Positions 166 through 63,778 of a stretch of 64,000 bases of DNA are shown piece after piece. The stretch comes from Watersipora subatra (lineage: Eukaryota > Bryozoa > Gymnolaemata > Cheilostomatida > Watersiporidae), in assembly GCF_963576615.1 (NCBI RefSeq), contig NC_088717.1, forward strand, positions 58,330,749-58,394,748, written 5' to 3'. The translations under genes were made by a program, and so were the position numbers. The notes under the pieces are model-generated. The model was not told where the DNA came from. It worked only from the letters and a program-made list of their open reading frames with translations, and searched no databases. Position 1 is the stretch's first letter, and every line of letters begins with the position of its first letter.

Positions 166-3100
166 GTACAGTTTGGTTGCTTTGCGGCGGGTCAGGTCTA
201 CTCATTCCTATGATTGGTTACATTTGTATGTGCCAACACACTAACTTGTGATAGTGTACATATATACACGTAGGTAAAAGCTTTCTAGCCTCATCTTAGC
301 CTAGTTCTAGTCTAGTTTAATTTAGCCTGTTCTATGCCGAAAGTTTAGTGGTGTTGCCTCCATCACATTTGCGTTGATTCTCTGTGGTCTAGTGGCAGCT
401 TTACAAGTACAGTGAAGTAGCTTGATATCTTTAACGTTTACTTGTTAATGCTACCTAGTGTTTTGATGACGTGGCTATTCAAATTGCTCTCACAGGAATT
501 ACCTTTATCAAATAATATTTCATTATATTTTATGTTTTGTTCTGCTCAGTACTGTATCATCACACTTTCCTAGCTATTTCTCTCTATCAAATGATGTTTA
601 TCGTGTTGCAGGAGCAGCAGACACTTGTCTCTACCGAGCTAGACGACTGCGGCCATTACATAGAGTTAACGAGGGAGGATACGCGCATGTATGACAGAGT
701 TCTAGAGCATGGTTTCATTCTTGCTGCTCACCATGGTTACCTCCCTATTGCTAATTACTTGCTTGACCACGGTGTCAATGTCAATGCTCAAAATGAGGTG
801 ACTACATTTATTCATTTCTATTTTCTTTAGACCTTTGAGTGTGTTCTCAGCCTCACCCATAGCTGACTTTGCCTTCAAAGGTTTTGGACAACTAGTTGCA
901 TTTTTCCGTACCTGAAAAAAACACCAACTTTTTTTCTATAGCATGCTGTATCAACCATTATCAAGGACAGACGACTACTCACCTTTGTGCTAGTGATAAA
1001 TATCTCAATAGTTATTCCAAATGCTGCTCAAACTTAAGATATTCCAGGTGCTGGCTGCAGGTCCTTACATACTATTTCATTCTCTTAATTCCTCAAAAGT
1101 ATTTTAATATTCAGTTGCATGGAAGAAAAACATGCATGAAATTCTTTGCGGAATTCAAAATTCGTAAAGGTCTTTTTACTGTCGCGTACACATAGTGTTT
1201 TTACAAGAAAATATGTTTTATGATTTATTTACAGAAAATTTTTTTTGAAGTTTTCAGTCAGTAAAAAGCATTAACTTTGATGAGCATTACTTACTGATCA
1301 TATTTTTATATAGTTATGCCATTGCCTCATGGTTGGTCTAGCTACTATAGTGAACTAAGCAAAGTTTTTCACACAATTTAGTTGAACTGGATTGAATTAT
1401 ATTCACTAAAGCGCTAGCTAACCGAGTTACCCTTAAAGGCTTGAAGACCAAATGAACAGACAAACACGAGAAAGATGAGTTGTAATTCACAAGCAGATGT
1501 GCTGTATATAAGCTTCGCTTCACTAGGGCAAGAGAGCTTTGGATTGCTTGTGTTTATACATAGTCACCATCAACCGGAACAGAAGATCACTAGCTTGTTA
1601 TCTGTATTACAAGAAGTTTTTCATGGTAGCCATAGAGTCAGATAGATGCTCATACGTGAGAGAAGTGTTTCATGGTAGCCATAGAGTCAGATAGATGCTT
1701 ATATATGAGAGAAGTGTTTCATGTGAGCCATAGAGTCAGATAGATGCTTATATATGAGAGAAGTGTTTCATGGTAGCCATAAAGTCAGATAGATGCTTAT
1801 ATGTGAGAGAAGTGTTTCATGGGAGCCATAGAGTCAGATAGATGCTTATATGTGAGAGAAGTGTTCCATGGTAGCCATAGAATCAGATAGATGCTCATAT
1901 GTGAGAGAAGTGTTTCATGGTAGCCATAGAGTCAGATAGATGCTCATATGTGAGAGAAGTGTTTCATGGTAGCCATAGAGTCAGATAGATGTCAAAGAAG
2001 CTCTAACAAGAATTATCTGTTGGCTCTCTGTCAGGCTGGAGCTACAGCGCTTATCAAGGCTTGTGAGAGAGGTCATAAAAAGGTCGTACAAACTTTGTTA
2101 GAGCACGGAGCTGATGTGAACCAGACTGACCTTGTGGGCAGCACAGCCTTGCAGTGGGTCACCAGGATGTCTGACCAGCTGGTTGATATACTCAAGCTTC
2201 TTCTTAGCCATGATGGTATCAATGTCAACCAAAGGTCGCACAAGGTAAGTTGACAACAGCACTGTTCCGTTATCTGTGATAGATATACCAGTTATACAGG
2301 TGCAAAATTATAAACTTTTGAAAGTTGAACTTATCTTAACCAAGCAGTTCCCTCATACAAATTTCTTATTTGAGTGTTTCTTAAGTAGTTGAGCGGTTCG
2401 AGTCTAGTACATGGGGCCTTGTGTTGTTGAGGAGTCCAAAACTTTAGCAACTTTAAAAATATAAGGTCGGGACATGCATAGTAGTTTTTAGTCATGTCCC
2501 AGCAACTAGAAACACTTTTTTCTCGAATTCATTAAATAATTCCAGCCTTTTTAAAGCTGCTAAGTGCGTGATTCTTAAACAAATTTAGTTCTAAAATTTG
2601 ATGTTTTGACTGGCTTAAGTAATGTCATTATTGAAGCTTTGATTAAGAATTTATATGTTGTGTCTGTGCATAACTCTATGATTATGATTAATATGTTGTG
2701 TCTGTGCATAACTTTATGCATATAATTAATATGTTGTGTCGTTGTGTATTTCTATGCTTATGGTTAAATTGGTTTCCAGCGGGCCCGTACAGCCTTACAC
2801 TGTGCAGCTGAGAACGACCTGTCTGGGCAAATGTGCAGAGGTCTATTGGACAAGCTAGCGACCGTTAACATAGTGGACAATGAGGGCATAACTCCTCTAC
2901 ACCTAGCTGCTGAGAGAGGCTTCGTCTGGAATGTGAGAGTTCTCTTGGAATATGGCGCTCATGTGAACATGCAAACAACTCAGGTGACAGTGCTAATGTA
3001 CAACATTTTTTTTCTGTGTTAAGTTGTCAACTCTCTTGGAGTAATCATGTTGACACTATTTGTAATAAGGTCACCAAGTCATTGACTCTGATCCTGTTGT

Positions 3101-6100
3101 GCAGGCCATTATACATGAACTCAAAATCTGCCATAGCATTTTGTTATCAGTTTATCTTTTGCCATGTTATTTACGGTATACACATTAATGATAATTTAAT
3201 TTATAATAATTTATTATAATAATAATTATAATAGTTTATTATAATCTAGCTCTAAGGTACGTCACTAATGATTTATTTTTTTGCAAAAAAGAGTATCTCG
3301 ACTAATATCAAATCTACAAGATATTCCATCTTATCAAATCGTTGCATATTCTTACTTCACTCACCTTACTCTTGCTGAATATCTATTTTACTGCAATTGA
3401 AGGTTTCAAGGCCTCTCATGGTTTGTGTCCTCGTTTTGGACATAACAGTTACAAGTTTTCAACTCATTTCAAACTTATGTGATAGGAACAAATTGCATAC
3501 ACCTAACTATAATTTTAAAAATATTATCGTTAGTTGATTTAACAATCTTCTACCTAGCATCTGTTCACTTGGCAGAAAAGGTATTTTAAACACTCTGTCA
3601 AACCATTTATTTGATTTTATTGGCTGTTGCCTTGTTTTCTTGTTTTATGATTTTTGTACAGCATAATTTGAAATACATTTCTGTTTGAAATGAAATTATT
3701 CCCAATAAAGTAATATATTATATATAATAAAATGATATATTATATATAATAAAGTAATATATTAAGTATAATAAAGTAATATATTATGTATAATTAGGTA
3801 ATATATTACATGTATATATATAATAAAGTAATATATTATGTATAATAAAGTAATATATTATGTTTAATGAAGTCATATATAATATATATAATTAAGTAAT
3901 ATATTGTATATAATAAATTAATATATTACATATAATAAAGTAATATGTCACAAATAATAAAGTAGTATATTACATATAATAAAGTAATATATTACATATA
4001 ATTAAGTAATATATTACATATAATGAAGTAATATATTACATATAATAAAGCAATATATTACATATAATAAAGTAATATATTACATATAATAAAGTAATAT
4101 ATTACATATAATAAAGTAATATATTACATATAATGAAGTAACATATTATATATATACAACCAACAGGTATTCTTCTCTTTCAACTCTGACCTGCAAAAAG
4201 CCTCAATGAAGGAAATGTTTGTTGAGATACTTGTTTCAGTTTAACTCCATTTCTTTTGTCTCGATATTTTAGTTTGGCTCAACAGCTTTGCATATTGCTA
4301 TGGCTCAAGGTCACGTGGAGACAGCCATGGTCCTTCTAGCATCCGGCGCTGACATCTCTATTAAGGACTCTGTGAGTGATTATGCAAAAGCACACTGAAC
4401 TTCACATGAAAAATTAAGGTGTATTCGTGCGAGTGCCCCTCATGCTTGTATACATACATGGCATTGAGGGTGTGCGTGTCCCCATGTGTGTTCCCATGCG
4501 TACACATTTCTCTATCTCACACGTTTGTGTTTATTGGGGCGTATTAGGATGATATGATTGGTTATTGGGGCGTATTAGGATGATATGATTGGTTATTGGG
4601 GCATTATTGGTTATTGATATGCGGTTATTGATTCTTTTTAAATCCTTTTTTTGTGTCAAATATTTGCTTGTCCAATTGTCATATAGTGAGAGATGAATAG
4701 ATGCTGCTAGTCATTTGAGTTAAAATTCTTACAACCTCCCTAAATATTGGGCTACCTATTTACGGTTTTAGACCCTAAATCTGCCCTTACTTATAATTGC
4801 AGTGTGATGAGACAGCATTAGAAGGGATGAGAAAGTATTCTAGACTCGCATCAACTGTGTTGGCCAGGCAGTACGATCTACTGGAGGACTATGTTGCTAG
4901 TGAGCTGTCAGTGTTGAGGTTGTATCAGGTGGGTAGCAGGTTGTGTCAGGTGGGTAGCAGGTTGTATCAGGTGGGTAGCAGGTTGTATCAGGCTGGTAGC
5001 AGGTTGTATCAGGTGAGTAGCAGGTTGGTATCAGGTGGGTAGCAGGTTGTATCAGGTGGGTAGCAGGTTGTATCAGGTGGGTAGCAGGTTGTATCAGGTG
5101 GGTAGCAGGTTGTATCAGGTGAGTAGCAGGTTGTATCAGGTGGGTAGCAGGTTGTATCAGGTTGGTAGCAGGTTGTATCAGGTGGGTAGCAGGTTGTATC
5201 AGGTGGGTAGCAGGTTGTATCAGGTGAGTAGCAGGTTGTATCAGGTTGGTAGCAGGTTGTATCAGGTGGGTAGCAGGTTGTATCAGGTTGGTAGCAGGTT
5301 GTATCAGGTGGGTAGCAGGTTGTATCAGGTGGGTAGCAGGTTGTATCAGGTGAGTAGCAGGTTGTATCAGGTGGGTAGCAGGTTGTATCAGGTTGGTAGC
5401 AGGTTGTATCAGGTGGGTAGCGGGTTGTATCAGGTGGGTAGCAGGTTGTATCAGGTGGGTAGCAGGTTGTATCAGGTGGGTAGCAGGTTGTATCAGGTGG
5501 GTAGCAGGTTGTATCAGGTGGGTAGCAAGTTGTATCAGGTGGGTAGCAGGTTGTATCAGGTGGGTAGCAGGTTGTATCAGGTGGGTAGCAGGTTGTATCA
5601 GGTTGGTACCAAACTAATTCAAACTCTAGCCTTCCAGTTAGAGCTTATCCGATCCGAAAGGGGTCTTTCAGTGCAAGTTGGTCATCATTTTGTGTGATTG
5701 TCTAGCTTTGAGCTTATAAATGCACAGGTTTCAGCTCACAAGTTCTTCTGGTACTATGCAATAGCGTTGCTGTCACACCTATTAACTTTCACCCGCTCTC
5801 TGTTTTCTCTAGGTTGACCTGATGAAACAGGTGTTTAATGTCCTGTGTGAGCTCATCAAAGAAGAGGACCATTGGTATAAAATGTTTATGGAGCTTTTTC
5901 AATGCAGGTTGGTGACACCTGTTTTACATGTCATCTCATTAGAATTGAGTAACACTTGTTGCAGCTTTTTAAACTCTACAAGCCGACAATATGTATGTGT
6001 GCTGGCTTGATGTCAGCGAAGGCCATCTTTTTTTACGCTGTGATGGAGCTATCTGCAAAAAATTTTATGAAACAAATCACTCTGGGAGTTTTGGCCTGGA

Positions 6101-9000: not shown

Positions 9001-9330
9001 CTATCTGATGATCTCCAGCCTATACATAAATATATATATATATATATATTTCTATTTATAAGGTTTACATACACCTTATATATACTCTACCTTATATATA
9101 TTCTACCTTGTATATATATTTATATATAATGTATATATTTATATATTTATTGTATATATATCGTATATATATATATTATATATATAGGCCTATCGTATAT
9201 ATATATCGTATATATATCGTATATATATATGTATATCGTATATATATCATATATATATAATATATATATATAATAATATATATATATTATATTTGTATAT
9301 TACTATACAAATATATATATATAATATATA
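9001..9330. repeat. AT/TATA microsatellite block
   Basis: Runs of (TA)n with interspersed ATATCGTATATA motifs; low complexity. It abuts the hammerhead palindrome. Confidence 0.95.
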
Positions 9331-9359
9331 TTTGAAAAATTATTGCGAAAAAAGTAAAC

Positions 9360-9423
9360 TTTTAGTATTTGCGTTACACATTTGTTTCGTGCGAAGCACT
9401 CATCAGACGCGATTGTACTAAAA
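9360..9423 (-). ncRNA. Hammerhead ribozyme motif, minus strand
   Basis: Mirror copy of the plus-strand motif in the other palindrome arm: CTGATGA core, GTGC/GCAC stem II, GAAA, TA cleavage site and both stem I helices. The only difference is one base in stem III (CAAATGTG), which still allows a two-pair stem with a four-base loop. Predicted cleavage falls between 9375 and 9374. Confidence 0.8.
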
Positions 9424-9449
9424 GTAAATTGTACTAAACTGTACAAAAA

Positions 9450-9513
9450 TTTTAGTACAATCGCGTCTGATGAGTGCTTCGCACGAAACAAATTTGTAAC
9501 GCAAATACTAAAA
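9450..9513 (+). ncRNA. Hammerhead ribozyme motif, plus strand
   Basis: All core elements are present in order. Stem I outer: TTTTAGTA (9450-9457) with TACTAAAA (9506-9513). Internal loop: 9458-9462/9503-9505. Stem I inner: GCGT (9463-9466) with ACGC (9499-9502). Core CTGATGA: 9467-9473. Stem II: GTGC/GCAC with loop TTC. GAAA: 9485-9488. A short stem III closes with C9489-G9496, then TA with predicted self-cleavage after A9498. This is the known hammerhead layout, of the type reported in Penelope-like elements and animal retrozymes. Cleavage activity is inferred, not shown. Confidence 0.85.
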
Positions 9514-9622
9514 GTTTACTTTTTTCGCAATAATTTTTCAAATATTTCATACTCCACTAATAATCTTTTAGGTTTTTAGTGTAGAGTTCTCTTTTTATAT
9601 GCTTTTGCACTTGCTTTTAGTT

Positions 9623-9716
<94 letters not shown>
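9623..9716. repeat. (TA)n microsatellite
   Basis: Almost pure TA dinucleotides. Confidence 0.98.
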
Positions 9717-9719
<3 letters not shown>

Positions 9720-9794
9720 ATAGTAACTAAAAGCACCTGCTTTGCATTGCTATTACTAAAAGTTTACTTTTTTCTTCTTTTTTTTTCCGATAAA

Positions 9795-30233: not shown

Positions 30234-32571
30234 GGCTACAGGCCAATCTTTTTATGTGTTGGTCGCCCTAACAAGGGCAAAGTGATTTCACACTGCAGCT
30301 AAGAGGTCTGCATGACAATGCGAGTCGAGCAAACCCAAGGAATCATCATCGGTGAAGATGGACAGCACTTCCAGAGATGAAGCTCATGGATTACCTACTG
30401 GACTCCATAGAGTGGTGAGAGCGCCCTTGCCTGACAGGATGTCATCTGATTATGTCTACATTTTGGACATTGTTATATCGAATGAAATAGTACTTGCAGA
30501 TGTTGTAGCTAGACATGGCAAAGGCACTCCGTCAGCTGAGAAAATATCAGCGTTTGACTGAAATGACATTTCCTAAAATGGTAACTAGTAGAAAGCTGGT
30601 AGGGAGCGGCTGAACTGACATTTGTTACTAGCTAAGACGAATACTAGCTGTGAGGTGCTAAAATTCCACACAGACCTGATAGCCCAGGCTTATGGTAGTC
30701 CAAAAGTAGCTGATAAGGAAGATTGGTGGCGCAGTAGCAAAAAATGTTGTTGTTTTATTGTTTTGCGTAATGTTTTTATTGCTGCAATAAATGTTTGTTT
30801 AAAAATTAACTGTATTGCTGACCTCGAACTTTCATTTACGGCCATTAGTCAATCAATTCTGAGCCCGCTTTCATGAATTTACTTGTAAACAGGTGTGTTT
30901 GTGTAAGCTATAATGCAGTGTCAGGCTGTCTTATTTTAATGAAATAACTCATTTTCCCTAAACAATCTTTGAAGAATGCGTCAATTAAGGGTTGCACTGT
31001 TATGCTGGTAGCCTCCTATCAGCTGAGGCCCGATTACTGAGCCTAGATTACCGGGTTGCCCTGGCATATTCATGGAAGCTTGAAAGAGCCTTCTATAATC
31101 AGCGCAGTTAGTCATGCTATGATATGATCATGGGGACAAATTAAAAGTCACTTGGCTCAAGTTTGGGCGAATAACCATCGCTCCAGTTAAATAATAAACT
31201 ATTCCAACTTGTGGTCAAATTATACATAGAATACTGATATTCATATACGGCAGCTACCCTCAAGAGCCTTGTGTATTCAGACCTCGAGCATGACCACCAC
31301 TTCTTCTCTTGGCAAGCCTTTGCTACAAATCTCAACAAGGCCCTTGGCCGTCACACATTAATTCTCTGTTGATGTTTCCTAAAGCCTTACAACAATCAAT
31401 TGTTCTATTTAACTACCATATATGAATTAGTTATGGTATACATATATGCATTTGTATTACATCCGCTATACATGTTATGCGTGCAACAGATGCTTATTAG
31501 ATCAAGCATCTGCTATTTTTTGTTCTACTTTTTTAATTGGTGTGTAGATGTATATGTAGTAAAAATCTTGCATTAAAACCATGAAAACATCAGCAGTGGT
31601 CATTCGTATCAGTTTTAAAGGTTGACTTGCAACCAAATTCACATTACCGTTATTTGATATGAAAAGATTCACTATGTCTTACTCTGTTGTGTTGTAGGTG
31701 CAAAATATGTGGAAAAGTGATTACAAGCTCTTAAAAGCTCAAAAACGAACAGGAAATTGCAGCCACACAAGACTGCCGTAGTTTGGATTCCCTTTCCAAA
31801 ACGGCTCAAATGTGATGTAGTTGTGAGAGATGGTTTCTGTTTACACTTTCTTGCAACCTTATTCGTCGAAATACTTTCACAAATATACTTCGAATATTTG
31901 TGAAATTCGTTTAATTTTTTAGCCTTAGCTTGAAGGAGTACATATCATTGTCTGATAATCATGACGAACCTGTTGGTCACTTGTGATAATCGAAAAGTGC
32001 TGTAGAAACTATTTGCGAAGTATTGGGTCACATGATCAGATTACGACTTGCCGATTAGACCAGGCCGAAACAAAACTGTAAAGTAGCGAGCATCTATATT
32101 TGATACGGGGTCTTCAGTAAAACTCGAAGTGTTTGTCATGAACTAGTACTACAATAAGTTTTATATTGAGCTTTGTATTGGCCTTTCAATTCACATGAGA
32201 ACATACGTGACAAGACGATAACCAAATTTCGTGGTTACATCATCGAAATAAAGAGATTCCAATCTAAGGCGGCTTTTCGTTTTTGAGCTTTTAAGGGCTT
32301 GTAACCACATTTCCACATATTTGGCACTTACAACACAACAGAGTAAGACATGGTGAATCTTTTGATACCAAATAACTGTAATGTGAATTTTGTTGCAAGT
32401 CAACCTTTAAAATTACCAAGAAACAACAGACCTTTTTAGTGTCCTGATCAATTCTAAGAAAAAAAGCTTAAGTGATGGTTTTTAGATAGATTGCTTTAGA
32501 CGTGTCTCACGCAAAACTATAGTACTATAAACAAGTATTATACTGTATATATAGGCATATATATATATATA
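30234..32571. other. Intergenic stretch, no supported gene
   Basis: Short open frames (for example 30352-30561 and 30622-30876, plus strand) have no motif or clear splice context. Sequence at 31680-31760 and 32270-32360 is a diverged inverted pair (GGTGCAAAATATGTGGAAAA-like blocks). Confidence 0.4.
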
Positions 32572-32599
32572 AAGTTTATTAAAAACTACAGGTTAAAAT

Positions 32600-32643
32600 C
32601 ATTACTACTATTAGTTTCATGCAATCGCGTTGCAATCTTCAGG
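32600..32643 (-). ncRNA. Degenerate hammerhead-like motif, inverted block
   Basis: The minus strand of the left terminal block repeats the same CTGAAGA, TGCAA/TTGCA stem and GAAAC layout, inverted relative to the copy at 33532. Confidence 0.4.
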
Positions 32644-32739
32644 TAGAATGACTAAAATGTATAATGTACAAGCTATAAAATTACTTTATAAAGCTAAAGG
32701 CTCAATATTATTGTATGATATATATATATATATATGTAT

Positions 32740-33150
32740 ACTAGCTGTGCCACCCGGCGTTGCCCGTGTAATAGAAAAGTCTTTGGACAGAAAATTGATT
32801 TGTATTTAACATATAACAACATTTGCCATTATAACTTTCAAAGTGCATATCATGAGAGAAGTGTGTCGTGTAGTTGAAATAAATTAAGAGAAAAATAAAA
32901 ACAACTGTGAAGGTTTAAAAACTTTGTCAAACAACTGTACCTTTCAAGCTAGTAGCCTGGCAAATTGCCAATGGAAAACTCCACAAAGCTAGTTAATAAG
33001 GTTATGCCTCTAATGACAGTAAGCCATGACTTTGAGTCTGTATTGTTGTCCAGCTGTTCTAATAATAGCTATAGCCGGATTTCCAACAGACGGAATTCCA
33101 ACAGACGGACTTTGAGAAATATACATGTATATAGATATATATAACCACAA
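32740..33150 (+). mobile_element. Composite SINE-like repeat inserted in Penelope remnant
   Basis: Head ACTAGCTGTGCCACCCGGCG, then GCCTGGCAAATTGCCAATGG, core AATAGCTATAGCCGGA and tail ATACATGTATATAG. The tRNA-like boxes are poorly preserved in this copy. Confidence 0.65.
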
Positions 33151-33421
33151 AACATCTTTTAAATATCCTACTAAAAGGTTACAAACAGAATTGTGTAAAT
33201 ACATATGGGACTTAAAAGACAAGAACATTCGCTATGATATAAACTGGAAGATCATCCAAAGAGCGCGGTCATACAACACATCAACAAAATCTTGCCAGTT
33301 ATGTCTATGGGAAAAGTACTTCATCATATTCGAACCGAAGTTAGCCAGCCTTAACACTAGAAGTGAGCTGATACCAACATGCTGGCATGCTAGAAAACAC
33401 CTAATTAGCTCAATAACATAA
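33144..33421 (+). pseudogene. Penelope-like GIY-YIG endonuclease fragment
   Basis: The frame from about 33144 to TAA at 33419-33421 reads NHKTSFKYPTKRLQTELCKY, then IWDLKDKNI, a conserved KSCQLCLWEKYFII segment and SELIPTCWHARKHL. These match the C-terminal GIY-YIG endonuclease region of Penelope-like elements as I know it. Everything upstream is lost, so the fragment cannot encode a working retroelement protein. Confidence 0.7.
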
Positions 33422-33531
33422 TTTGACTACATATTTGCTGTATACTATATATATATCATACAATAGTATTGAGCCTTCAGCTTTATAAAGTAATTTTATA
33501 GCTTGTACATTATACATTTTAGTCATTCTAC

Positions 33532-33575
33532 CTGAAGACTGCAACGCGATTGCATGAAACTAATAGTAGTAATGA
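33532..33575 (+). ncRNA. Degenerate hammerhead-like motif in terminal block
   Basis: CTGAAGA (33532-33538), a 5-bp stem TGCAA/TTGCA with loop CGCGA, then GAAAC (33556-33560) and a short stem CTA/TAG followed by TA. The core has A where active hammerheads have U (CTGATGA), and the first stem II pair is C-T. It is probably inactive. Confidence 0.45.
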
Positions 33576-33602
33576 TTTTAACCTGTAGTTTTTAATAAAC
33601 TT

Positions 33603-34137
33603 CATACACAGCTCTAATTGACTCGATTATTGAGCACTGTACGGTGTAAACCACATATACTATATATAGGCCTATATATATATAAGCAGGTACAAATACT
33701 ATAAACGTAAAAAGCTTGCTAGAACAAATTTATTCATGCTTTTCATAGGAAACATTGTGATTCCATGAAATGAAAAGATGTAAACCAGAGGAAACAAGCG
33801 AGATGAGTGCCTTTTGCAAAAACGCATTACTTTTAGATGACTAAATTACATAACAAAACTTTTCTTTTAATTTAATTGGAACATAAAAAAACTCAAAAGG
33901 ATTATTGCTGCGCAGACAGTATGCAGAGAATTAAGTCCACAGTATGTACCTACTTTTCATGTATATGTATGAAGTCATTTACTTGACATCTTTAGCTAAC
34001 AATGCAAAGAAGACAAATTATATTAAAATAAGCGAATTAAAATGACACAGGAACTTGAGATGTCATCCGTTATGAGAAGACTGAACAACTGTGCCTTGAG
34101 ATAAGAGAGGAACATTGTCAAATGGTTAAAAAGGTTA
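33603..34137. other. Downstream flank of the minus-strand gene
   Basis: Holds the likely 3' flank of the gene ending at 34138; no other coding region is seen. Confidence 0.4.
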
Positions 34138-34801: not shown

Positions 34802-37800
34802 CTAAAAAAGTTAGTAAAAACATTGAATATGATAACCTGTGATCTAATGACATGCACATTGAATATGGCATTGTAGGCCGATACGCTATACATCGCCTTT
34901 TATAACAACAACAACAGCAAGGCATCGCCTTTTATCACAACAACAACAACAGCAAGGCATCGCCTTTATAACAACAACAACAACAGCAAGGCATCGCCTT
35001 TTATACTATTTATTTTAATGATGATTATGAAAGGAAATGGCATGTATGTATGTATTAACAAAACCCCCTTATAACAAAGAGTAGCAAAGCAACCGATTTT
35101 TCCAATTTGAGGTAGTTTAGAGTGTACCTTATGGTCAGTGCACACTGATGTCTGGAGTGTACCTCATGGCCAGTGCACACTGATGTCTGGAGTGTACCTC
35201 ATGGCCAGTGCACACTGATGTCTGGAGTGTACCTCATGGCCAGTGCACACTGATGTTTGGAGTGTACCTTATGACCAGTGCACACTGATGTTTGGAGTGT
35301 ACCTTATGACCAGTGCACACTGATGTCTGGAGTGTACCTCATAGCCAGTGCACACTGATGTTTGGAGTGTACCTCATGGCCAGTGCACACTGATGTCTGG
35401 AGTGTACCTCATGGCCAGTGCACACTGATGTTTTGTGAAAAAATACTTAATCAAAAGCAGGATAAATTATTTCCTCAGATTTCCCACTTAAAGCGAGGAC
35501 GCCAAACTGGCAACCAATGAGCCTTTCATGTAACAATGTCATTGCTTATCTTAAAAATGCCATCTGGGATATGCATGGGGATTAGTGTCAGAATCAACCA
35601 ACATGTCATCGTCAAAGTTCCCTTGAACACTCCAATCAAAACTTGGCAGCGATTAGGGTGTTAAAAACAGATAGTGTCTTTTATTCACAACAGGCTAGTT
35701 AGGCTTCAACAGATAATTAGGGTTATCTACACTTGCAATGACTAGCAGACAACTCTCCTAATTGAGATTGTATCAATACATGGTAGCAATAGCTGCAGAC
35801 TATTCGAGTAGAAGTGCTCAAAAGTTGGAGTTGCTTCCCTCCGCAAGAAAAAACCTGTTAATGACTCGCTCGGGTCTGAGCGCTATTAGGGAATAGTAAT
35901 AACAATCCCTTTATATCATTATTATTGGCCAATGTCCATCTGCTTTTTCTGTCCCAAAGCAATCTATATTTTTTGATAGGCAAAATTATTCTGAGGCATT
36001 TCTAATTTTCCCTGCCCACAACTTAGTGTTATTAAACTATACTAAAAAGAGTTGAGCTATTCTTAACTTTAAGAACTAGAGAATAACCCTTGTCTACTGT
36101 ACAAAACTATAGATGGGGTGTCTAAAAAGGCTAATTCTAGAAAGGTCTTTGGCTTCATGGATGACCTTTACTAAAAGTAAACAAATCAACCCCTTATACC
36201 AAAGCCAATTAAAAATTGCCTTCACAACGTGTTTTTTATAAAACAAAGAATAGTTACTGAATGAGCTGGACGATACGTTGTATACCTTATAAACAACTTA
36301 AGGGCAGATGATTCCAACACACAACATAAATTAAATCACAACAGCTATTTTGCGTGCCGGGCACACAAACTATTTGCTGACTTTGATGCAGAAAAGATTA
36401 ACTATTGTAAGTAGACTTGAGCTTGACTGGCTTCTTGCATGTGTAATAAGAAAGAGATCTTCCGTTAGAGATACAACAGGAAACAAAGGAATAGATAGGA
36501 ATACACATAAACATTAATGCCGTGAAGGGTTAGCTGAGAACCTGAGTAAGGGTGTTGATGTGAGAGTTTTGTGTCGAGGACCTTCAGGATTAGTAAAAGA
36601 AAGCTTTTTCTGGCTTCTTGATCGGGGTGAGTTGAGATGAAGCTGAGAGAAAAGCAAAGATGTGGAAGTAGCTGGAGAGAGGGTTTCATCTTTTATGATA
36701 TCTTTGGACCTTTCTCTACAAGTAAAAGCAGAATGAGGAAGTAGACAGGAGCTCTTAATATTTGTGAGTAATAAATCCACTCAAACCTCTACAAACAAGT
36801 GCCATAACAAACTAAACTTTCACAGATGACATAAAATTCCGGCAAAAATTTAATTCTAAACCTCGTGTTAAACCATAATAGTTTTTAATGCAAAATATAA
36901 TGTTTATGTAGTCCTGACAATACCAGCGTCTAGTACAGTAGCAGTGTTTAGTACAGTACCAGCGTCTAGTACAGTACCAGCATCTAGTACAGTACCAGTG
37001 ACTAGTACAGTAGCAGTGTCTAGTACAGTACCAGCGTCTAGTACAGTACCAGTGACTAGTACAGTAGCAGTGTCTAGTACAGTAGCAGTGTCTAGTACAG
37101 TAGCAGTGTCTAGTACAGTAGCAGTGTCTAGTACAGTAGCAGAGTCTAGTACAATAACAGTGACTAGTACAGTACCAGTGACTAGTACAGTACCAGTGTC
37201 TAGTACAGTAGCAGTGTCTAGTACAATAGCAGTGACTAGTACAGTACCAGCATCTAGTACAGTAGCAGTGTTTAGTACAGTACCAGCGTCTAGTACAGTA
37301 GCAGTGTTTATTACAGTACCAGTGTCTAGTACAGTAGCAGTGACTAGTACAGTAGCAGTGTCTAGTACAGTAGCAGTGTCTAGTACAGTATCAGTGAGTA
37401 GTGCAGTACCATATCATACCTTACAAACGGCAACTGCTTTTTTCCACAAGAAGGACTGCTAATAAGTGCTATTAGTGGATCATCAGCTAAAACAAAAGAA
37501 CACATGTACAGACTACTAAGGGAACACATGCACAGACTACTAAGGGAACACATGTACAGACTACTAAGGGAACACATGTACAGACTACTAAGGGAACACA
37601 TGTACAGACTACTAAGGGAACACATGTACAGCCTACTAAGGGAACACATGTACAGACTACTATAGGAACACATGTACAGACTACTAAGGGAACACATGTA
37701 CAGCCTACTAAGGGAACACATGTACAGACTATTAAGGGAACACATGTACAGACTACTAAGGGAACACATGTACAGACTACTAAGGGAACACATGTACAGC

Positions 37801-40800
37801 CTACTAAGGGAACACGTGTACAGACTACTAAGGGAACACATGTATAGCTTACTAAGGGAACACATGTACAGACTACTATAGGAACACATGTACAGACTAC
37901 TAAGGGAACACATGTACAGCCTACTAAGGGAACACATGTACAGACTACTAAGGGAACACATGTATAGACTACTAAGGGAACACATGTACAGACTACTAAG
38001 GGAACACATGTACAGACTACTAAGGGAACACATGTACAGACTACTAAGGGAACACATGTACAGACTACTAAGGGAACACGTGTACAGACCACTAAGGGAA
38101 CACATGTACAGCCTACTAAGGGAACACATGTACAGCCTACTAAGGGAACACGTGTACAGACTACTAAGGGAACACATGTATAGCTTACTAAGGGAACACA
38201 TGTACAGACTACTATAGGAACACATGTACAGACTACTAAGGGAACACATGTACAGCCTACTAAGGGAACACATGTACAGACTACTAAGGGAACACATGTA
38301 TAGACTACTAAGGGAACACATGTACAGACTATTAAGGGAACACATGTACAGACTACTAAGGGAACACATGTACAGACTACTAAGGCAACACATGTACAGA
38401 CTACTAAGGGAACACATGTACAGACTACTAAGGGAACACATGTACAGCCTACTAAGGGAACACATGTACAGACTACTAAGGCAACACTTGTACAGACTAC
38501 TAAGGGAACACATGTACAGACTATTAAGGGAACACATGTACAGCCTACTAAGGCAACACTTGTACAGACTACTAAGGGAACACATGTATAGACTACTAAG
38601 GAAACACTTGTACAGACTACTAAGGGAACACTTGTACAGACTACTAAGGGAACACTTGTACAGACTACAAAAAGAGAACATTTTCTCACTTTTGTGTCAG
38701 TAAAATCATCCCTTACATCTTTTACACACAAATGAACCACATAAGCATGTGATGGTACAATCAGAAGAGATCTATTGGTAGACTATTAACTGTTATGGTT
38801 TCACAATTACAAAGAGCTTACGGATAGAATCGGGGTTTTTAATAGTGACAAACTCAACTCGTCTCCGCTTAGCTGGTGGCTTCTTATTAGCCAGTGATTC
38901 TTCATGGCATCTGCTTTGTGGCCTCTGTTCTGTAAAGCATTATAAACTAAAGAAATTTTGTATGCAAAAGAAAACATCCAATTGGAATTCAGATAATCAC
39001 CCCCATAAATTCAAAGGATTTCCAAATGACAATTATAAACCCTGGAATGCATCGCACCTTTTCTGTATCACCCACCGCAATCTATAACTTCGATGTTTAC
39101 CTATTACTATTACCCCTATCATCCTTAACTACACCTCTAACTATCATCTCTAACTGCACCCCTGACTATCATCTCTAACTGCACTCCTGACTATCATCTC
39201 TAACTGCACCCCTGACTATCATCTCTAACAGCACCCCTGACTATCATCTCTAACTGCACCCCTGACTATCATCTCTAACTGCACCCCTGACTATCATCTC
39301 TAACTGCAACCCTGACTATCATCTCTAACTGCACCTGTGACTATCATCTCTAAATGCATACCTGACTATCATCCCTAACTGCACCCCTGACTATCATCTC
39401 TAACTGCACCCCTGACTATCATCTCTGAATGCACCCCTGACTATCATCTCTAACTGCATACTTGACTATCATTCCTAACTGCACCCCTGACTATCATCTC
39501 TAACTGCAACCCTGACTATCATCTCTAACTGCAACCCTGACTATCATCTCTAACTGCACCCCTGACTATCATCTCTAAATGCACCCCTGACTATTATCCC
39601 TAACTACACCACTGACTGCCATCCCTAACTGTGTACTACCATACAATCCAGATTTTCCAATTGTAGTTTTTTGAAGGAGTAAGAACATGACTCCCATTAT
39701 AAAATTCAATTTCTAGTAGGTATTGACCGACAGTGCAGTAGCCAGAAAGCACATACAGTGAAGTAACAATTGCAATTTTTTACATAAAATCTAGCAGCCT
39801 TGTAACAAACATGTCAACATTCATTACAAAAATGATTGCTAGAATAGCGCGTATATGCAAATATCTCCCGTATAGGAGCGTCGATACAGTAGACGCTCCT
39901 ATATCGTAAACAATCCGTTCCAGGAACATTTACGTCATAGGGAATTTATGTTATAACAGTAAAATATATGTAAATTGCCTAATCCGTTCCAAGATATTTC
40001 CAAACTCACCTCTTTGGCCATGCAAAGAGGAAAAACTTAACTTGATTCTTTTAAGTTGTGGGCTGTACGGTAACGGCAGAATTATTGGTTTGCATCGACA
40101 ACTTTTCTTCTTTTTATGATCATTCTCACTGGTTTTATAGACCATGATTGAGGTAATTTTACAATAAGTTGATAGGGATTGCACACTTTCGACGTTCATT
40201 TACAACGATTTGCTTATTTTATAAAGAGCAAAGTCTATTCTGCAAAGTAAAGCTAATAACAAATATTTTGTACGCCTACAATAAGGCAAAACAACAAAAT
40301 TTTTTTACTATAAAAAGCAGTTCTACCTGTTCGTCATCTATCACTATCCAGTGGTCAAGGTTAGGATAAAGATAATTTTTGACGACACTCCAACTCGTGA
40401 CATTTAGATTGGTAGACCGACGCTGTAACACCTGCACCAATCGATTGTCTTTGCATTTATTAATAATTGCACAGCTATCCTATTTGCCTTTTAGTCGACA
40501 CATTTAACGATCTATTACGAAGAACTAGAATGTCACGAAAGTTATATATAATAGATATAACGCTAGTGCGTTCTGCACTAGATAGATAGAATGCTAGTTC
40601 TAGATCTTCCGCAAGTGCGGCAAAATAAACTAACGACCAAATCAATTTTGAAAACTCTTCCGAAGTGACACTTTACGTTATATGGAATTTTTTAAGTAGT
40701 AGGAAGCAAAATCTTCACATACATTTTTTACATTATTTGGAACTTAAATTATAGGAGGTATACGTTATAGGAGCGTCTACTGTATATATATTTATCAAAG

Positions 40801-55009: not shown

Positions 55010-57100
55010 ACAATGAAGTGAAAGAGCAAAGTGAAAGAGGTCCCACCTTGTCCGACTTCGACAAACATCACTTTAAACGAGAAGAAGTGTGAATTTTCTC
55101 AGACTCGTGTCACCTTTCTGGGTCATGTTATAAATGAATCGCGGACATGAATATCAGCCATGCAGGACTTCCCTATTCCAAAAACAGGAAAAATTTAAAA
55201 AGATCCTTGGCATGGTTAATTATACACTTTATCAAGTTTATATCCACTCTGGCCGATGACACGGTCAATATGAGATCTTTCCTCAAATCTAAGGATAGTG
55301 ATGGGTTTTGGAAACCAGAGATGACCGAAGAGTTTTAAGTGCTGAAGCAGAAGATCTTCTCAGTCCCGGCGTTAGTCTCACTTGATATAAAGGCCGAGAC
55401 CTGGCTTGGGTGACTTGAGAGCAGCTATTTTCCAGAAAACTGCTGATGGCTCAAGTCTATAGCCTTAGCGTTGTGAGCCCTTATGAATACCGAAAAGCAG
55501 TGTGCCCAAATAGATAAAGAAGCTCTGGCTCTGAGTTGGGCAGCGGAAAAATTATAACTCTATTAAACTCTTATCTAGCTGGCCGCGACTTCAAAATCGA
55601 AAGTGACCACAAACTCCTGGTATCAATCATGGCAGATAGAGCTGTATAAACTCCCTATCCGTGTTCAGAGATTTCATTTGAGTATTATGCAGTTTTCGTA
55701 TGATGTCACATACGCCACTGGCAAAAAAGTAGATAGTTGCTGGTGCCTTGAGCAGAGCCCCAGCAGAAACAGAGTGTCAGAACCAGAGCCTCTACTCATT
55801 CAGGAAATGACGGAAGTGCTCCCGATATCTCAAGCCGGACAAAGCTACTCGAGGTTGTCCTCTTAACAAACCCCATAGCTAGTCAGTTGATTATGTATAT
55901 TCCATAGAAACCATGGTGGCAGCTTACAATGGATTTCTGCACCGTTGATGATAGAAGCAGTGAGTCTAGTTATTAATGACTATTATAGCCAGTTCATGGT
56001 CGCTGAAAAGTTCCTCCGAGTCACTGCTGGGGATCTGTGCAGAGCCGCCAACAAGGTCAAATGTACATTAGGTGTACCACATGTCATTGTATCAGATAAT
56101 GGTCCACAGTTTATCGCTGTAAACTTCGCTCAACCCATGAAAAAACGGGATATTATTCATCAAACTAGTTTCTCTAGAAACCCCCAAGCAAATGGTCATA
56201 CAGAAAGAGGGGTGCAAACATTCAAAATATTGGGGCGAAAAATGTTGAGACTGAATCTGCTATTATGTGCTATAATGACAGTCTCTAGGCTGTAGGGAGA
56301 ATGGCAATACCCCTGACCGACTGCTCATGGGAAAAAGTATGAATTCAATGGGCTATCTTTTCAACAGTCCAGTGAACATGAAAAGGTTTCGTGTTTATGA
56401 AGCTGACTACAGGGGTAAGCAGGCTCACAATTTCAATCAGCGGTACAGGGCAGTTGAACAGGGCCCAGTGCTTATCGGAACTACACTGGTAGGATAGTTT
56501 TCAATGACCCCTCAGCTAAACCTTTAAAGGCTCATGTGATGGCGTCTTCAGGTAGAGAAGTTGCGTTGAAAACTAATAATGGAGCCGTGCTGCGCAAGAA
56601 CAGAAAACTAGTGTAGATTGAAAATCCCGCGAGTCTTCTCCATTTGAGCGTATGTCAAGCGAAGACTTCTCTTATCCCACACCGAACTCTGGAAGGGAAG
56701 CGAGCACCAGTCAGGTAACCACTATACCTAAGAGAGAGAACTTCAGAGACCGGACCTCGACAGTCGCCGATGCCAGATGTGCCTGCTTCTGCACCTCTAC
56801 AGTTATGGACTCTCCAAGTGAAGAAGACTGTTAAGCAATCACCTCCCTCAGGAAGCAGTTGTTCTCCGCCTACATTGACTCCGGCATCAACTCCAAAGCG
56901 TATCGAGGTCGGTGGATCAACCGGTCTCAGCAGTCAGTCTCAGCCAGCCCCGCCTCCTCTAGTACTCATCGTCGGAGTGCACAGACCCGTCAGACACTGT
57001 CTGGGAGAGTTGTAAAACCTCAGATAGGCTTGACCTGTACCAGATGTATTTGCGTGTTATGCCTTGTTTTGTAAATAATGTCCATGTCTCAATACTCACT
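55010..57100 (+). pseudogene. Ty3/Gypsy pol relic (RT end, RNase H, integrase)
   Basis: Segments in correct order with many stops and shifts: reverse-transcriptase end (KKCEFSQTRVTFLGHVI near 55090), RNase H-like part (EALALSWAAEKL near 55520), and an integrase core open at 55945-56295. The integrase retains NDYYS, SDNGPQF and NPQANGHTERGVQT, the three blocks carrying the D-D-E residues. A C-terminal tail with RRSAQTRQTLSGRVVKP follows near 56960. Gag and most of RT are missing. Confidence 0.8.
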
Positions 57101-59253: not shown

Positions 59254-60083
59254 CTGTAATATCCGACCCATTGCACATTGTAGCAAACTCTATTTCCACT
59301 ACCTACTCTACTATTTGCTTCATATCTAGAGACATACCTCTCCATGCTACTGTCTCTATAGTTCCTACTGTCCCTGTCCTTGTTATACGATTTGTTAGGC
59401 TCAGACTATATCGACCTCTGAGCTCACACGTGGTTTTGGCTCACAAGCAGTATAGGTGGTCTTGGCAATTTTGGTGCGTGAATAAAGCTAGTAGATTAGG
59501 TAGTACAAGGCAGTATGGGGAGTATATAAGGAAGTGGAACGAAAGACGGACTCTCTTCTTTTCATCAGTTGAATGTAAGACATACAGCAAGCAAGTTGTG
59601 CTGCACAGCGTTATATTTTACTTTTAACCAGTATGACTGTTTTATAAACTTCAACTCTTCTAATATACCGATGCGAGAGCAATTGGGAACTTTATTAGTA
59701 CAGTGTCACAAGTATATAAAATAAAGAATAAGACTTCCGGTGTCATGGTGGACGGACGCGCTTTTTTGCCAAAAATATTTCTCTCACAAAAATTTACTGA
59801 ATTCCTCACAGCACACAGCTCTACATCATCAAAGAAGGCTTGCATCAGGGCTTGAGTGGGGGCCCAAGCATCTCTAGGCACCGGGAGCTAGACTCCGTCT
59901 GCGTAGATTGAGCCTTTGCTGGGTGGCCTTAGATGCCAGCTGAGTCTTGGTGATCTGCCATTGCTTACCATTGTTCAGGACAAATTAATTATTTTCTTTA
60001 TTTATTTCCTATTTTATTAATATTTTCTTTTGTCTTGTAAAATTTAATCACTTGTGTACTAATCATCTCTGTAAAAACTGAAA
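59254..60083. other. LINE 5' flank, possible promoter-bearing repeat
   Basis: GTATATAAGG at 59520 followed by a pyrimidine-rich start-like region resembles a TATA promoter, perhaps of an old LTR. The part from about 59880 to 60083 is probably the 5' UTR of the LINE. Confidence 0.35.
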
Positions 60084-61019
60084 ATGCCTGTTAAAGTAAA
60101 AGATACAAAAGATAAACCAAGATCGAACAGCGCATCCAGTGCTGATTCATCTCTGACTCAGAGACTGGACTCTAGAAGGAGCTCCAACAAACTGCATCAC
60201 TGTAAAATATGCAGTAAAATCATTACTGACGCCTCTGAACCTGCTATTGAATGTGAGAAATGCTTAGCGTGGCTGCATGCGAAATGCGTGGCTCTTGATA
60301 AAGGTGACCTGATCACGGCCGGGAAGAAGGGGTTTCATTGGTACTGTAATGATTGTGACTCGGTCCAAGATTTATTTACTGCCAAAGTTAGCACTATTGA
60401 GGACCGGCTAGAAGAGTCTATTCTTAGAATTGTCGAGTCGCTTGACTCTAGAATGGAAAACATTGAAACCCAAGTTAGAGAGCAGTTTCAAACGCAGTCT
60501 CAAAAACACGAACAAACGTATGCCCAGATAGTCCAAAAAGTCGACCAGTCTACAAGTGTGCTAAACAATCAGTTAAGAGTACAAGAAGTTCAAATGCAAT
60601 CTCTCAAAACCGAAATCACCAGCGAATCCCGTGCTAAAAATGTCATTATTTTTGGAGTGGAAGAGGATAAGGACACTACTCTCGAGAAATCTATCGAGAG
60701 ACTCTCCGACCTCTTTAGATCGGCGAGTCTCAACGTGGAGGTGTCAAAGTCAAACACCACCCGTTTAGGTGTTAAAAAAGAGAGCAAATTCAGACCTATT
60801 AGAGTGTGCTTGTCTTCTGAAACTCAGAAATGGGACTTATTGAAAAGAATCAATGCCCAAAAAATAACTGGAGTTTTTGCTCGCCTTGATTTGAATAAAG
60901 AAGAGCAAGAGAGGGATTTTCTTCTAAGAAAGGAGTTAAGGGAGCAGAAAGATCAGGACCCGGAAAACAATTACAAGATTTTCAACAGCAAAATAATAAA
61001 GACAGGCCCCAAGAATTAA
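60084..61019 (+). CDS. LINE ORF1 protein with PHD-type zinc finger
   Basis: 311 codons, intact. Residues about 37-92 form a PHD-like zinc finger (HCKICSKII, ECEKCLAWLHAKCV, FHWYCNDC). Residues about 95-190 are predicted coiled coil (heptad-like, Gln/Glu/Arg rich). Residues about 195-300 resemble the RNA-binding fold of LINE ORF1 proteins (AKNVIIFGVEED, TTRLGVKKESKFRPIRVCL). Known ORF1 proteins bind element RNA and assist retrotransposition. The ATG at 60084 follows stops in frame. The end overlaps the ORF2 frame by a few codons. Confidence 0.85.
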   Translation: MPVKVKDTKDKPRSNSASSADSSLTQRLDSRRSSNKLHHCKICSKIITDASEPAIECEKCLAWLHAKCVALDKGDLITAGKKGFHWYCNDCDSVQDLFTAKVSTIEDRLEESILRIVESLDSRMENIETQVREQFQTQSQKHEQTYAQIVQKVDQSTSVLNNQLRVQEVQMQSLKTEITSESRAKNVIIFGVEEDKDTTLEKSIERLSDLFRSASLNVEVSKSNTTRLGVKKESKFRPIRVCLSSETQKWDLLKRINAQKITGVFARLDLNKEEQERDFLLRKELREQKDQDPENNYKIFNSKIIKTGPKN

Positions 61020-63778
61020 AGTTATCAGATCAAATCAGACTCCTTTCTGTGAATTCCCGATCTATAAAAGGAAAGCTCACCGAAATCCAAGCTCTTTCTT
61101 CAGAATATGATATAATATGTATCACTGAAACACACATAGATAAATCATTTTCAAATAATCAACTTTTCCTTCCAAGTGATAAGGTAATTTACAGAAGGGA
61201 TAGAGATGATCACGGGGGCGGAGTTCTCATAGCTGTGAAAACTGATATGTCTCACAAAATCGTTGCCACAACTGTTGATGCAGAAGTAGTATCAATTGCC
61301 TTCCAAATACATGAAAAACAATTTTGTACTTTATTATGTTACTACCGACCTCCTACCAAAAACAGTATTGATGTTCTTTTCTCTCACATACATAAGCTCA
61401 AACAAACATACCCAGCAAACAAATTACTAGTCGTTGGTGATTTCAATTTACCAGGCATAGACTGGAAACAAAAAGTTATAGTTGGGGCAAACCGGTCCCA
61501 CTACAAAGACTTCCTTGACAATTTGTTTGACTTACAACTTGACCAGCTAATAACTGATCCCACTTATGTGGCTGGAAACACATTAGACTTAGTATGTACA
61601 GACCTGTCTTACCGAATAACGAATACAAGCGTCATACAGCCTGGTCTTAGTGACCACTATATGATCGAAATAAACATATCCACTTCGCAGACAGCGGAAC
61701 TTCAAAACAATGTAGACCTACCTCCTATTAGACTGTTCAAGCAAGTTGACTTGCCCAATTTTGAGAAGTCACTAGCTGCAATTCACAAATGGGTAACGGA
61801 GTGTATAGGCATTGGAGGTACCATAGACAACGTTTGGAACATTTTTAAACTTGGCTTACATAATGCAATAAATGATCATGTTCCTACCAGACAAAGACAG
61901 CCTAAAAGGCCAAACGAACCACTCTGGTTTAATAAATCTGCAAAGCGTGCATGCAACGAGCAACGTAAGTTATACTCCTTGTATAAGAAAAAAGGAGACA
62001 GTGAATTACTTAATAAATACAAACAACTACGTTGAAATAACAAAAAGTTATTTAAAAACCTCAAAAAAGACTACATGACCAATAGACTATACAATCCACT
62101 AGTAGAGGGTGACACCAAACCCTTCTATAGATATATAAAAGAATTAAAAGGAAATGCAAACAAAATTGTGTCGATGGAACAAGACAATGGAGTATTGACT
62201 GAAAATGATTATGAAACTGCTAATATACTAAATTCTTTTTTTCAGAGCGTCTTCTCGAAACCTTCCCCTCTACCTACACTGCCATTTATTGCCGATCCCC
62301 AAAATATTTCGATCTCAACCAACGGAGTATTAAAATTAATAGATAACCTGAAAACTGGTAAGGCCGCAGGCCCAGACAAGATTTGAAAAAATCAACTCAC
62401 TCTAGACCCCGAAGGAACAGCCGCTATTTTGACGAGCATATTTGACTATTCACTTCAAACAGGTACCTTGCCCGAAGAATGGAAAATTGCCCACGTGACT
62501 CCTATTTATAAACAAGGTAGTCGAACTTCACCATCCAATTATCGCCCCATTTCTCTAACTTGTATATGCTGTAAATTATTGGAACATATAATCGTTCACC
62601 AGCTAAATGCGCAGCTCACAAACAAAATTTCCTCAAACCAGCACGGCTTCAGAAAAAGTCTCTCGTGTTGTACCCAACTGATAACAGTAAACCATGACAT
62701 ACTCAAATTTAATGACTCCGGATCCATTGTACATGCAGCCATTTTGGATTTCTCTAAAGCGTTCGATGTAGTAAATCATAGCAAACTCCTAACTAAGCTT
62801 ATAGGCTTCGGTATAAATCCCATACTTATACGTTGGATAGCATCCTTCCTCCAAGGTAGGTCTCAGCGAGTTCTGGTAGGAGGTGGGATGTCGGATCCAG
62901 TACAGGTCACATCAGGAGTCCCGCAGGGGAGCGTACTAGGCCCTACTCTGTTCATCTTGTTTATAAATGATATAGTTGACTGTGTTACCAATAGTTCTAT
63001 ACGCCTCTTTGCCGATGATACTCTAGTATATCACCCTATTACAAACTCAAACGACATGACACTATTACAAACTGACCTCGATAACCTATTTCAATGGGGA
63101 CAGTCCAATGGTATGTTATTTAACGCCAAAAAGAGCACTATTGTTTCATTCGGGAAAACATCGCTTACAGACAAATACCCCATAAATTACCATCTCGGGA
63201 ACACCCCTTTAATCACATGTGACACTGTAAAATACCTTGGTGTGTACCTTTCAAAAGACAACAAGTGGAATACACATGTTGAATATATTTGTATGAAAGC
63301 ATCACGCATCCTTGGATTGTTAAAAAATACTATTAGTGATGCCCCAGTCGCAGTGAAATTGATTGCTTATAAGCAGCTGTGTCGACCTGTTCTTGAATAC
63401 GCAGCCGAGGTCTGGGACCCTCATACAGCCACGCATTCCGACATGCTGGAACGCATACAAAATAAAGCTGTGAGATTCATTAAAAATATTAAAGGCAGAG
63501 AGGTGTCCGTCTCAGAAGAAAAATTCATGTGTGGCTTAAAGTCCTTAAAACACAGAAGACAGCAACAGAGATTGTCTTTGTACATTAATATCGTATCAAA
63601 CAAAGATACGTTTCCATCCATCCATGACACACTGACCGAAATGAACGCATCTACTCACTACATGACCACACGTTCTAACAATCTAAACGCCCTCTCCTGT
63701 GACTCTGGTCAGTTTTTGCAGGGATTCATCCTCAGGACATCTCGGGAGATCCGCACTGGGGAGATTGTAGCGGACTAA
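61016..63778 (+). pseudogene. LINE ORF2: endonuclease and reverse transcriptase, two in-frame stops
   Basis: One continuous frame of about 920 codons, interrupted only by TGA at 62033-62035 and TGA at 62384-62386. The N-terminal AP-like endonuclease has LLSVNSRSIKGKL, ICITETHIDKS, GGGVLIAV, VVGDFNLPGIDW and GLSDHYMIEI. The reverse transcriptase has NYRPISLTCICCKLLE, AAILDFSKAFDVVNH, SGVPQGSVLGPTLF, the catalytic FADDTLVY and VKYLGVYLS; the C-terminus has RPVLEYAAEVWDP. There is no obvious ATG after the ORF1 stop, so translation would need re-initiation or frameshifting. Both stops are TGA and could each be CGA codons changed by C-to-T. I count it as inactive as it stands. Confidence 0.85.

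Follow-up and report, generated by a model that had tools for sequence, protein, structure and literature searches.

Poseidon of Anolis (PAc) and the Penelope elements of Adineta and Drosophila are Penelope-like elements (PLEs), retrotransposons in which one open reading frame (ORF) carries a telomerase-like reverse transcriptase (RT) together with a GIY-YIG region. In the extracts from PMC11167929 and PMC3846280 on which we draw, they are further marked by tandem pseudo-long terminal repeats (pseudo-LTRs) with a hammerhead ribozyme in the pseudo-LTR region, by an optional tail between two RT start sites, by AT-rich targets and by head-to-head inverted pseudo-LTRs. Here we analyze a palindrome at 9328-9545 of a 64 000-nucleotide stretch of the bryozoan Watersipora subatra (contig NC_088717.1, positions 58,330,749 to 58,394,748), to which we refer in its full length as the window. 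The palindrome belongs to a repeat that resembles those PLEs in these respects, except that its matches to a GIY-YIG region are weak and leave that feature a candidate, and it is very probably one insertion, comprising two 5′-truncated PLE copies joined head to head. PLE hammerheads, tails, AT-rich targets and head-to-head copies are already known; the tally of end types and the inequality of inner limits add new detail, as far as literature searches show, to what is a familiar kind of element. In contrast to the known PLEs, many of the copies here are short palindromes containing little beyond two hammerheads, and the rule by which their outer ends are paired has been counted. Among the matches listed in a search for inverted or palindromic hammerheads, judged by title, start of abstract and term counts, none is about head-to-head hammerhead palindromes, and we make no claim of first description.

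The palindrome has two arms of 96 nt each (9328-9423 and 9450-9545) that are complementary at 95 of 96 positions and separated by a 26-nt spacer. A type I hammerhead, with its core and its helices, is present in each arm, and thus the first-pass annotation, which saw two hammerheads in opposite orientation within a near-perfect palindrome, holds on this point. It found no other recognisable element, and here it has to be corrected; the arms, an 89-bp tail and the flanking AT repeats together form the truncated PLE insertion. In unit coordinates the arm end is 0; an outer end at the arm end (+1) is termed A, and one at +89 nt is termed B. The whole insertion extends from an A end at 9328 to a B end at 9634, and is sited in (AT)n. 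Each copy retains just the last ~96 nt of the unit, while the right copy extends 89 nt into the next unit to give the tail. The features are as follows, the two flanks and the junction being read from sequence.

9020-9327, no strand: AT-rich simple-repeat flank at the A end
9328-9423, minus strand: arm, an inverted PLE 3′ end whose outer end (9328) is of type A; carries the minus-strand hammerhead
9424-9449, no strand: junction between the head-to-head copies, containing the inner repeat TTGTAC..GTACAA
9450-9545, plus strand: PLE 3′ end (arm); carries the plus-strand hammerhead
9463-9502, plus strand: right-arm hammerhead core; cleavage is predicted after 9498, and 9450-9457 pairs with 9506-9513 as outer helix I
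9546-9634, plus strand: tail, corresponding to the 89 bp that follow the arm in a tandem unit; its outer end (9634) is of type B and adjoins (AT)n
9635-9722, no strand: (AT)n flank at the B end
9741-9774, plus strand: diverged fragment of a family-1 arm (85% over 34 nt)

A retrozyme had been considered on the ground that the fragment at 9741 repeats the right arm directly, at a spacing of 248 bp; this was abandoned after the genome copies had been examined.

The repeat is almost certainly a Penelope-like retrotransposon of which the arm is the 3′ end (pseudo-LTR), and the link to such elements that the first-pass annotation had raised as a possibility is borne out. It had also advised a search of the genome for further copies of the arm, and they are there: a 35-nt piece is found at 733 places in the 784-Mb genome (≤3 mismatches), and its reversed control at 0. 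A search with the arm gave 901 candidates, and the 40 of them that were scored contain at least 68 matches. We read 38 stretches around the best matches, four longer stretches and 60 of 601 bp (exact places on contigs C1-C5, among the matches listed). One locus, L047, includes the coding region. Its order is inverted tail, inverted arm, inverted C-terminal coding part, junction, coding part, arm, full 5′ leader, coding region and arm, and the tail stretch leads into the coding region. The latter matches residues 1-699 of a homologue (P0001, 701 aa) with 65% identity and one in-frame stop. In the coordinates of this locus the direct arm at 2283-2378, the coding match at 2565-4667 and the arm at 4742-4836 constitute an ORF region between tandem pseudo-LTRs, in a tandem unit of ~2.46 kb that includes the coding region. 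The arm begins 75 nt past the matched coding region and the hammerhead core ~90 nt past it, while 233 nt separate the cleavage site predicted in the first direct arm from the coding match that follows.

The coding region has 3,625 homologues among 7,993 scored candidates. The structure of P0001 is predicted with a mean pLDDT of 90.6, and telomerase accounts for 9 of the 12 best PDB matches of the model, with query TM-scores of 0.31-0.36. The residues FD..F YPSI and YRDDG, which we take to be motifs of a telomerase-like reverse transcriptase, are invariant in 38 homologues. Telomerase-like structure matches and tandem arms together therefore indicate a Penelope-like element. Sequence profiles are less favorable, and weigh against this assignment. 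Pfam scans of the coding sequence and its homologues gave no RT match; GIY-YIG (PF01541) was found at E ≤ 0.1 in 6 of 38 homologues, weakly (best E 8.3e-4), and in a piece of L034 at E 0.042; and PF26215, which is precomputed on most of the listed homologues, was unreported by the Pfam scans here. A profile compared with PDB sequences gave 0 matches, and a pattern for PLE relatives in viral contigs matched 9 stretches, of which 0 were confirmed.

The outer ends of the copies follow a simple rule. Of 171 segment ends mapped, 72 lie at +1 and 69 at +89. An AT run (at least four AT units in the next 20 nt) follows 70/72 A ends and 60/68 B ends; insertion is into AT-rich DNA, and the target is mostly (AT)n. 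There are 57 stretches with an outward-facing pair and both ends visible, once five near-duplicates are removed. Fifty of these are A/B, two are A/A, none is B/B and five have one end elsewhere, so that A/B pairs outnumber like-ended pairs by 50 to 2 (binomial p 6e-13). In the Anolis element the two end types correspond to two RT start sites with the tail between them, and the purified PLE protein cleaves AT-rich DNA in both strands and extends them (PMC11167929). In L014, L022, L041, L069 and L071 the second copy is an inverted stub of 20-70 nt that ends inside the arm at neither A nor B, a form suggestive of short fold-backs.

A second head-to-head PLE insertion in the window belongs to another high-copy family.

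32568-33668, no strand: second head-to-head PLE insertion, with a hammerhead-like motif on each strand
32568-32741, minus strand: family-2 copy with an A-type end
33143-33668, plus strand: family-2 copy including the end of the endonuclease region; CTGAAGA at 33532, with predicted cleavage after 33568 (placed by eye)

The intervening 32742-33142 does not map to the family-2 reference. Starting from this relic we found 487 candidates and read 25 loci. Of the 13 outward pairs, 12 are A/B, their two ends falling within 111-119 and 176-182 in query coordinates. The exception, L135, has diverged, and neither of its ends is at these positions.

The inner limits of the paired copies bear on how the two halves arose. 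In family 1 they span +62 to -2300. In 34 of the 50 A/B pairs the two limits lie within 5 nt of each other, which counts against separate origins since it is also expected of one folded-back complementary DNA (cDNA), and in 16 they are >5 nt apart. The separation is 72-174 nt in L023, L032, L053, L054, L058 and L075, and hundreds of nucleotides in L047 and L049; in family 2 it exceeds 5 nt in 11 of 12 pairs and 100 nt in 9 of 12. Could a single cDNA have folded back on its own 3′ end and been copied, the hairpin then being inserted? Self-priming of this kind, there with an antisense template, is the explanation offered for rotifer PLEs (PMC3846280). It would account for the close inner ends, often with tiny loops, for private variants common to both arms, and for short inverted stubs such as those of L014, L022 and L041. 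Yet a self-primed copy cannot outreach its template plus the loop, and the six loci with limits 72-174 nt apart, L047 and L049, and 9 of the 12 family-2 pairs are all at odds with this. Nor does self-priming alone explain the presence of one A and one B end, and the arms of L091 come from two subfamilies. We consider it unlikely. Because the inner ends are often unequal, to an extent beyond the reach of a folded-back copy, each insertion was probably formed from two separate cDNAs.

Comparison of the arms indicates where those cDNAs come from. In 25 loci the arm difference is 1.76 within a locus compared to 3.05 between loci, and 23 derived variants are common to both arms, compared to a mean of 7.4 with shuffled partners (0 of 5,000 shuffles as high). 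Such variants are shared in 13 of the 25 loci, and in 8 of these the sharing is not limited to the common site 30. Among 47 stretches with at least two arms, 7 have arms that differ at the subfamily sites 13, 22 or 30, and L091 alone differs at all three. Since the arms share derived variants and rarely differ in type, both cDNAs would usually have come from one source, and we infer that this was usually one and the same RNA molecule.

The palindrome might alternatively be a small non-autonomous element in its own right, retrozyme-like or resembling a miniature inverted-repeat transposable element (MITE), that is copied as a palindrome. Certain inner limits do recur, both being near -95 in 24 of the 50 pairs and both near -112 in 8, as such an element should show; one further pair is mixed, and 17 have at least one limit elsewhere. 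Overall, 44 segment ends lie at -95 and 14 at -94. But the inner limits vary from copy to copy over the range given above, the outer ends A and B are asymmetric, so that neither the symmetric ends nor the fixed interior of a MITE or other element with terminal inverted repeats is found, and long copies include the PLE coding region. Derived variants common to both arms in 13 of 25 loci are moreover unlikely to descend from a fixed ancestral palindrome. An independent palindromic element is thus very improbable, and a propagating palindrome was set back as a candidate by the shared arm variants and the mapped copy ends. The -95 and -112 limits sit at or just outside outer helix I of the hammerhead, and may be RNA 5′ ends. 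A double palindrome is found in L013 (522-859), where the order is minus arm, plus arm, minus arm, plus arm, and there is an additional turn, tail to tail, near -21.

How might two cDNAs come to be joined in this way? The element protein would cut both strands of an AT tract, each cut strand would prime one cDNA, one from A and one from B and usually on the same RNA, and the 3′ ends of the two cDNAs would then be joined head to head. In its most specific form, two RT molecules acting as a dimer and primed by the two target strands begin at A and B of one RNA molecule; this we put forward tentatively, as a possibility that falls short of being probable. Two cDNAs from one RNA would explain why the outer ends are almost never alike and why the arms share private variants. 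Against this scheme, in vitro work saw the start site differ in no way between target strands and found hammerhead cleavage unnecessary (PMC11167929). As the strands did not differ there in start site, the scarcity of like-ended insertions is information beyond that work. A start further 3′ goes with a shorter cDNA in family 1 (13 versus 3, p 0.02), and this trend is absent from family 2 (5 versus 6, in a sample from a B-side query that is biased to long B sides), which also counts against the scheme. We do not rely on a rule that the trailing cDNA is shorter, which family 1 fitted and family 2 did not.

The 733 arm places constitute a large natural record of the PLE integration reaction, in which the scarcity of like-ended insertions and the unequal inner ends speak for two primed cDNAs per event. 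If two cDNAs are indeed drawn from one RNA, then integration of a PLE normally yields palindromes as its short product, and the RNA would have its 5′ ends at -95 and -112, on the hammerhead's outer edge or immediately beyond it.

The hammerhead itself can be described in detail. Both window arms have the CUGANGA / GAAA core, three helices and a UH sequence preceding the cleavage site that define type I. In the plus core, helix I is formed by G9463-T9466 with A9499-C9502, CTGATGA is at 9467-9473, helix II is GTGC/GCAC within 9474-9484 and GAAA is at 9485-9488; helix III has three pairs and the loop AATT, and U9497 and A9498 precede the predicted cleavage site. The minus arm mirrors this, with CTGATGA at 9406 on the minus strand and predicted cleavage opposite 9375. 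The sole mismatch between the arms is 9379 C / 9494 T. The first-pass annotation assigned it to stem III; its position in the RNA is in the helix III tetraloop, just beyond the drawn pairs. A strict hammerhead descriptor matches the window only twice, in the two arms, compared to 1 match in 300 first-order Markov windows. The 65-nt plus arm has a best fold identical to the hammerhead, at -10.7 kcal/mol.

The arrangement differs from that of PAc, in which the start of the ORF is within the hammerhead and a protein was required for cleavage (PMC11167929); here the hammerhead follows the coding region and none of its three helices is missing. It shares the type I form, a very short helix III and the PLE setting with the minimal hammerheads of PLEs and Terminons, as they appear in the extract from PMC7761336, but differs from them in that helix III has pairs and a tetraloop and that there is an outer helix I, with an internal loop. 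Pairs and a tetraloop in helix III are described for invertebrate hammerheads in the part of PMC7229834 that we cite. The animal non-LTR retrozymes presented there likewise combine a type I hammerhead, a short helix III with tetraloop and low GC; in contrast to these, the unit here is ~2.46 kb with a coding region, and its short forms are inverted.

Variation was analyzed in 149 family-1 arms from 99 stretches. The 12 core positions have variants in 8/1,788 cells and the 3′ remainder of the arm in 37/4,694, while N7 varies in 67/149 arms, loop II in 100/447 cells and the helix I internal loop in 78/1,192. The common subfamily sites 13, 22 and 30 fall at N7, loop II and the internal loop. These are positions that hammerheads leave free. 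The core and 11 inner pairs are intact in 121/149 arms. Variants in the helices preserve pairing in 23 cases and break it in 27, and so lend the pairing no support; since they keep and break pairing about equally, there is no visible constraint on helix pairing in recent family-1 copies.

Family 2 has a motif at a similar place, with CUGAAGA, GAAA, GUA and three helices of other letters, and a U.U at the base of helix II such as is also described for an axolotl hammerhead (in the cited part of PMC7229834). From the sequence this is supporting, not conclusive, evidence for the hammerhead reading. The hand-drawn family-2 hammerhead is predicted at -3.8 kcal/mol, compared to -10.7 for a best fold in which the core is paired otherwise, and an Rfam search around the second PLE returned no hammerhead model.

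The balance of these data must be set against a number of unfavorable results, to which the equal numbers of preserved and broken pairs and the family-2 fold also belong. The hammerhead fold of the minus arm (-10.5 kcal/mol) loses to an alternative at -12.0, 1.5 apart. With longer flanks (9441-9535) the best plus fold is no longer the hammerhead, and both minus stretches fold otherwise. In none of the four stretches does stability clearly exceed that of shuffled sequences (z 0.34, -1.89, -0.77, 0.79). The covariance-model search on which the first-pass annotation had staked its reading, run here with Rfam, gave no significant hammerhead match: there are 0 matches in the whole window at gathering scores, none to any hammerhead model at E ≤ 10 in the minus arm alone, and in the plus arm alone only RAGATH-1-hammerhead at 12.9 bits (E 5.7; gathering score 56.3). 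In E-value mode the palindrome drew mostly microRNA models, responding to the hairpin or the AT repeats. Hammerhead_1 (RF00163) finds nothing in the genome, and likewise nothing in 14 control genomes; an exact 27-nt hammerhead pattern has 0 matches in viral contigs.

Is the likeness to a hammerhead then due to chance, or a dead relic free of selection? The missing gathering-level match, the silence of Hammerhead_1 (in the control genomes also), a stability like that of shuffled sequence and the 28/149 arms without an intact core or inner pair would all fit. Against this stand the rarity of descriptor matches in random windows, the placing of the subfamily sites at positions free in hammerheads, and a second family that bears the motif at the same place with its helices changed. 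We regard chance or a dead relic as extremely improbable, and retain the hammerhead despite the failure of Rfam because the comparative evidence of arm variation and family 2 is given greater weight.

A transcript of the palindrome from either strand has the antisense arm 5′ of the ribozyme, and is predicted to form a hairpin of -155.8 (plus) or -154.8 (minus) kcal/mol. As the antisense arm is transcribed first in both cases, a long hairpin is to be expected, and the ribozymes within the palindrome are probably masked by it. The first-pass annotation had left a choice between self-cleavage from either strand and a duplex hiding both hammerheads; modeled folding favors the duplex (-155.8 versus -10.7 kcal/mol). 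Intact-looking hammerheads thus sit where their own complement should mask them. Matters could differ in tandem units, where multimeric RNA could be resolved by the hammerhead into ~2.46-kb units, and the palindrome hairpin may feed small-RNA silencing. Viroids carry hammerheads in both polarities, and the palindrome is like them in having a hammerhead readable from either strand; unlike theirs, its arrangement stems from a DNA insertion, and no circular or replicating RNA is indicated.

Elsewhere in the window, a non-LTR retrotransposon with PHD finger, endonuclease and reverse transcriptase domains lies at 60075-63778. An integrase core fragment at 55891-56295 (rve, E 1e-5, below the curated cut-off) is perhaps the relic of an LTR element. 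Minisatellite arrays at 4897-5697 and 36812-38782 can be read as long repetitive open frames.
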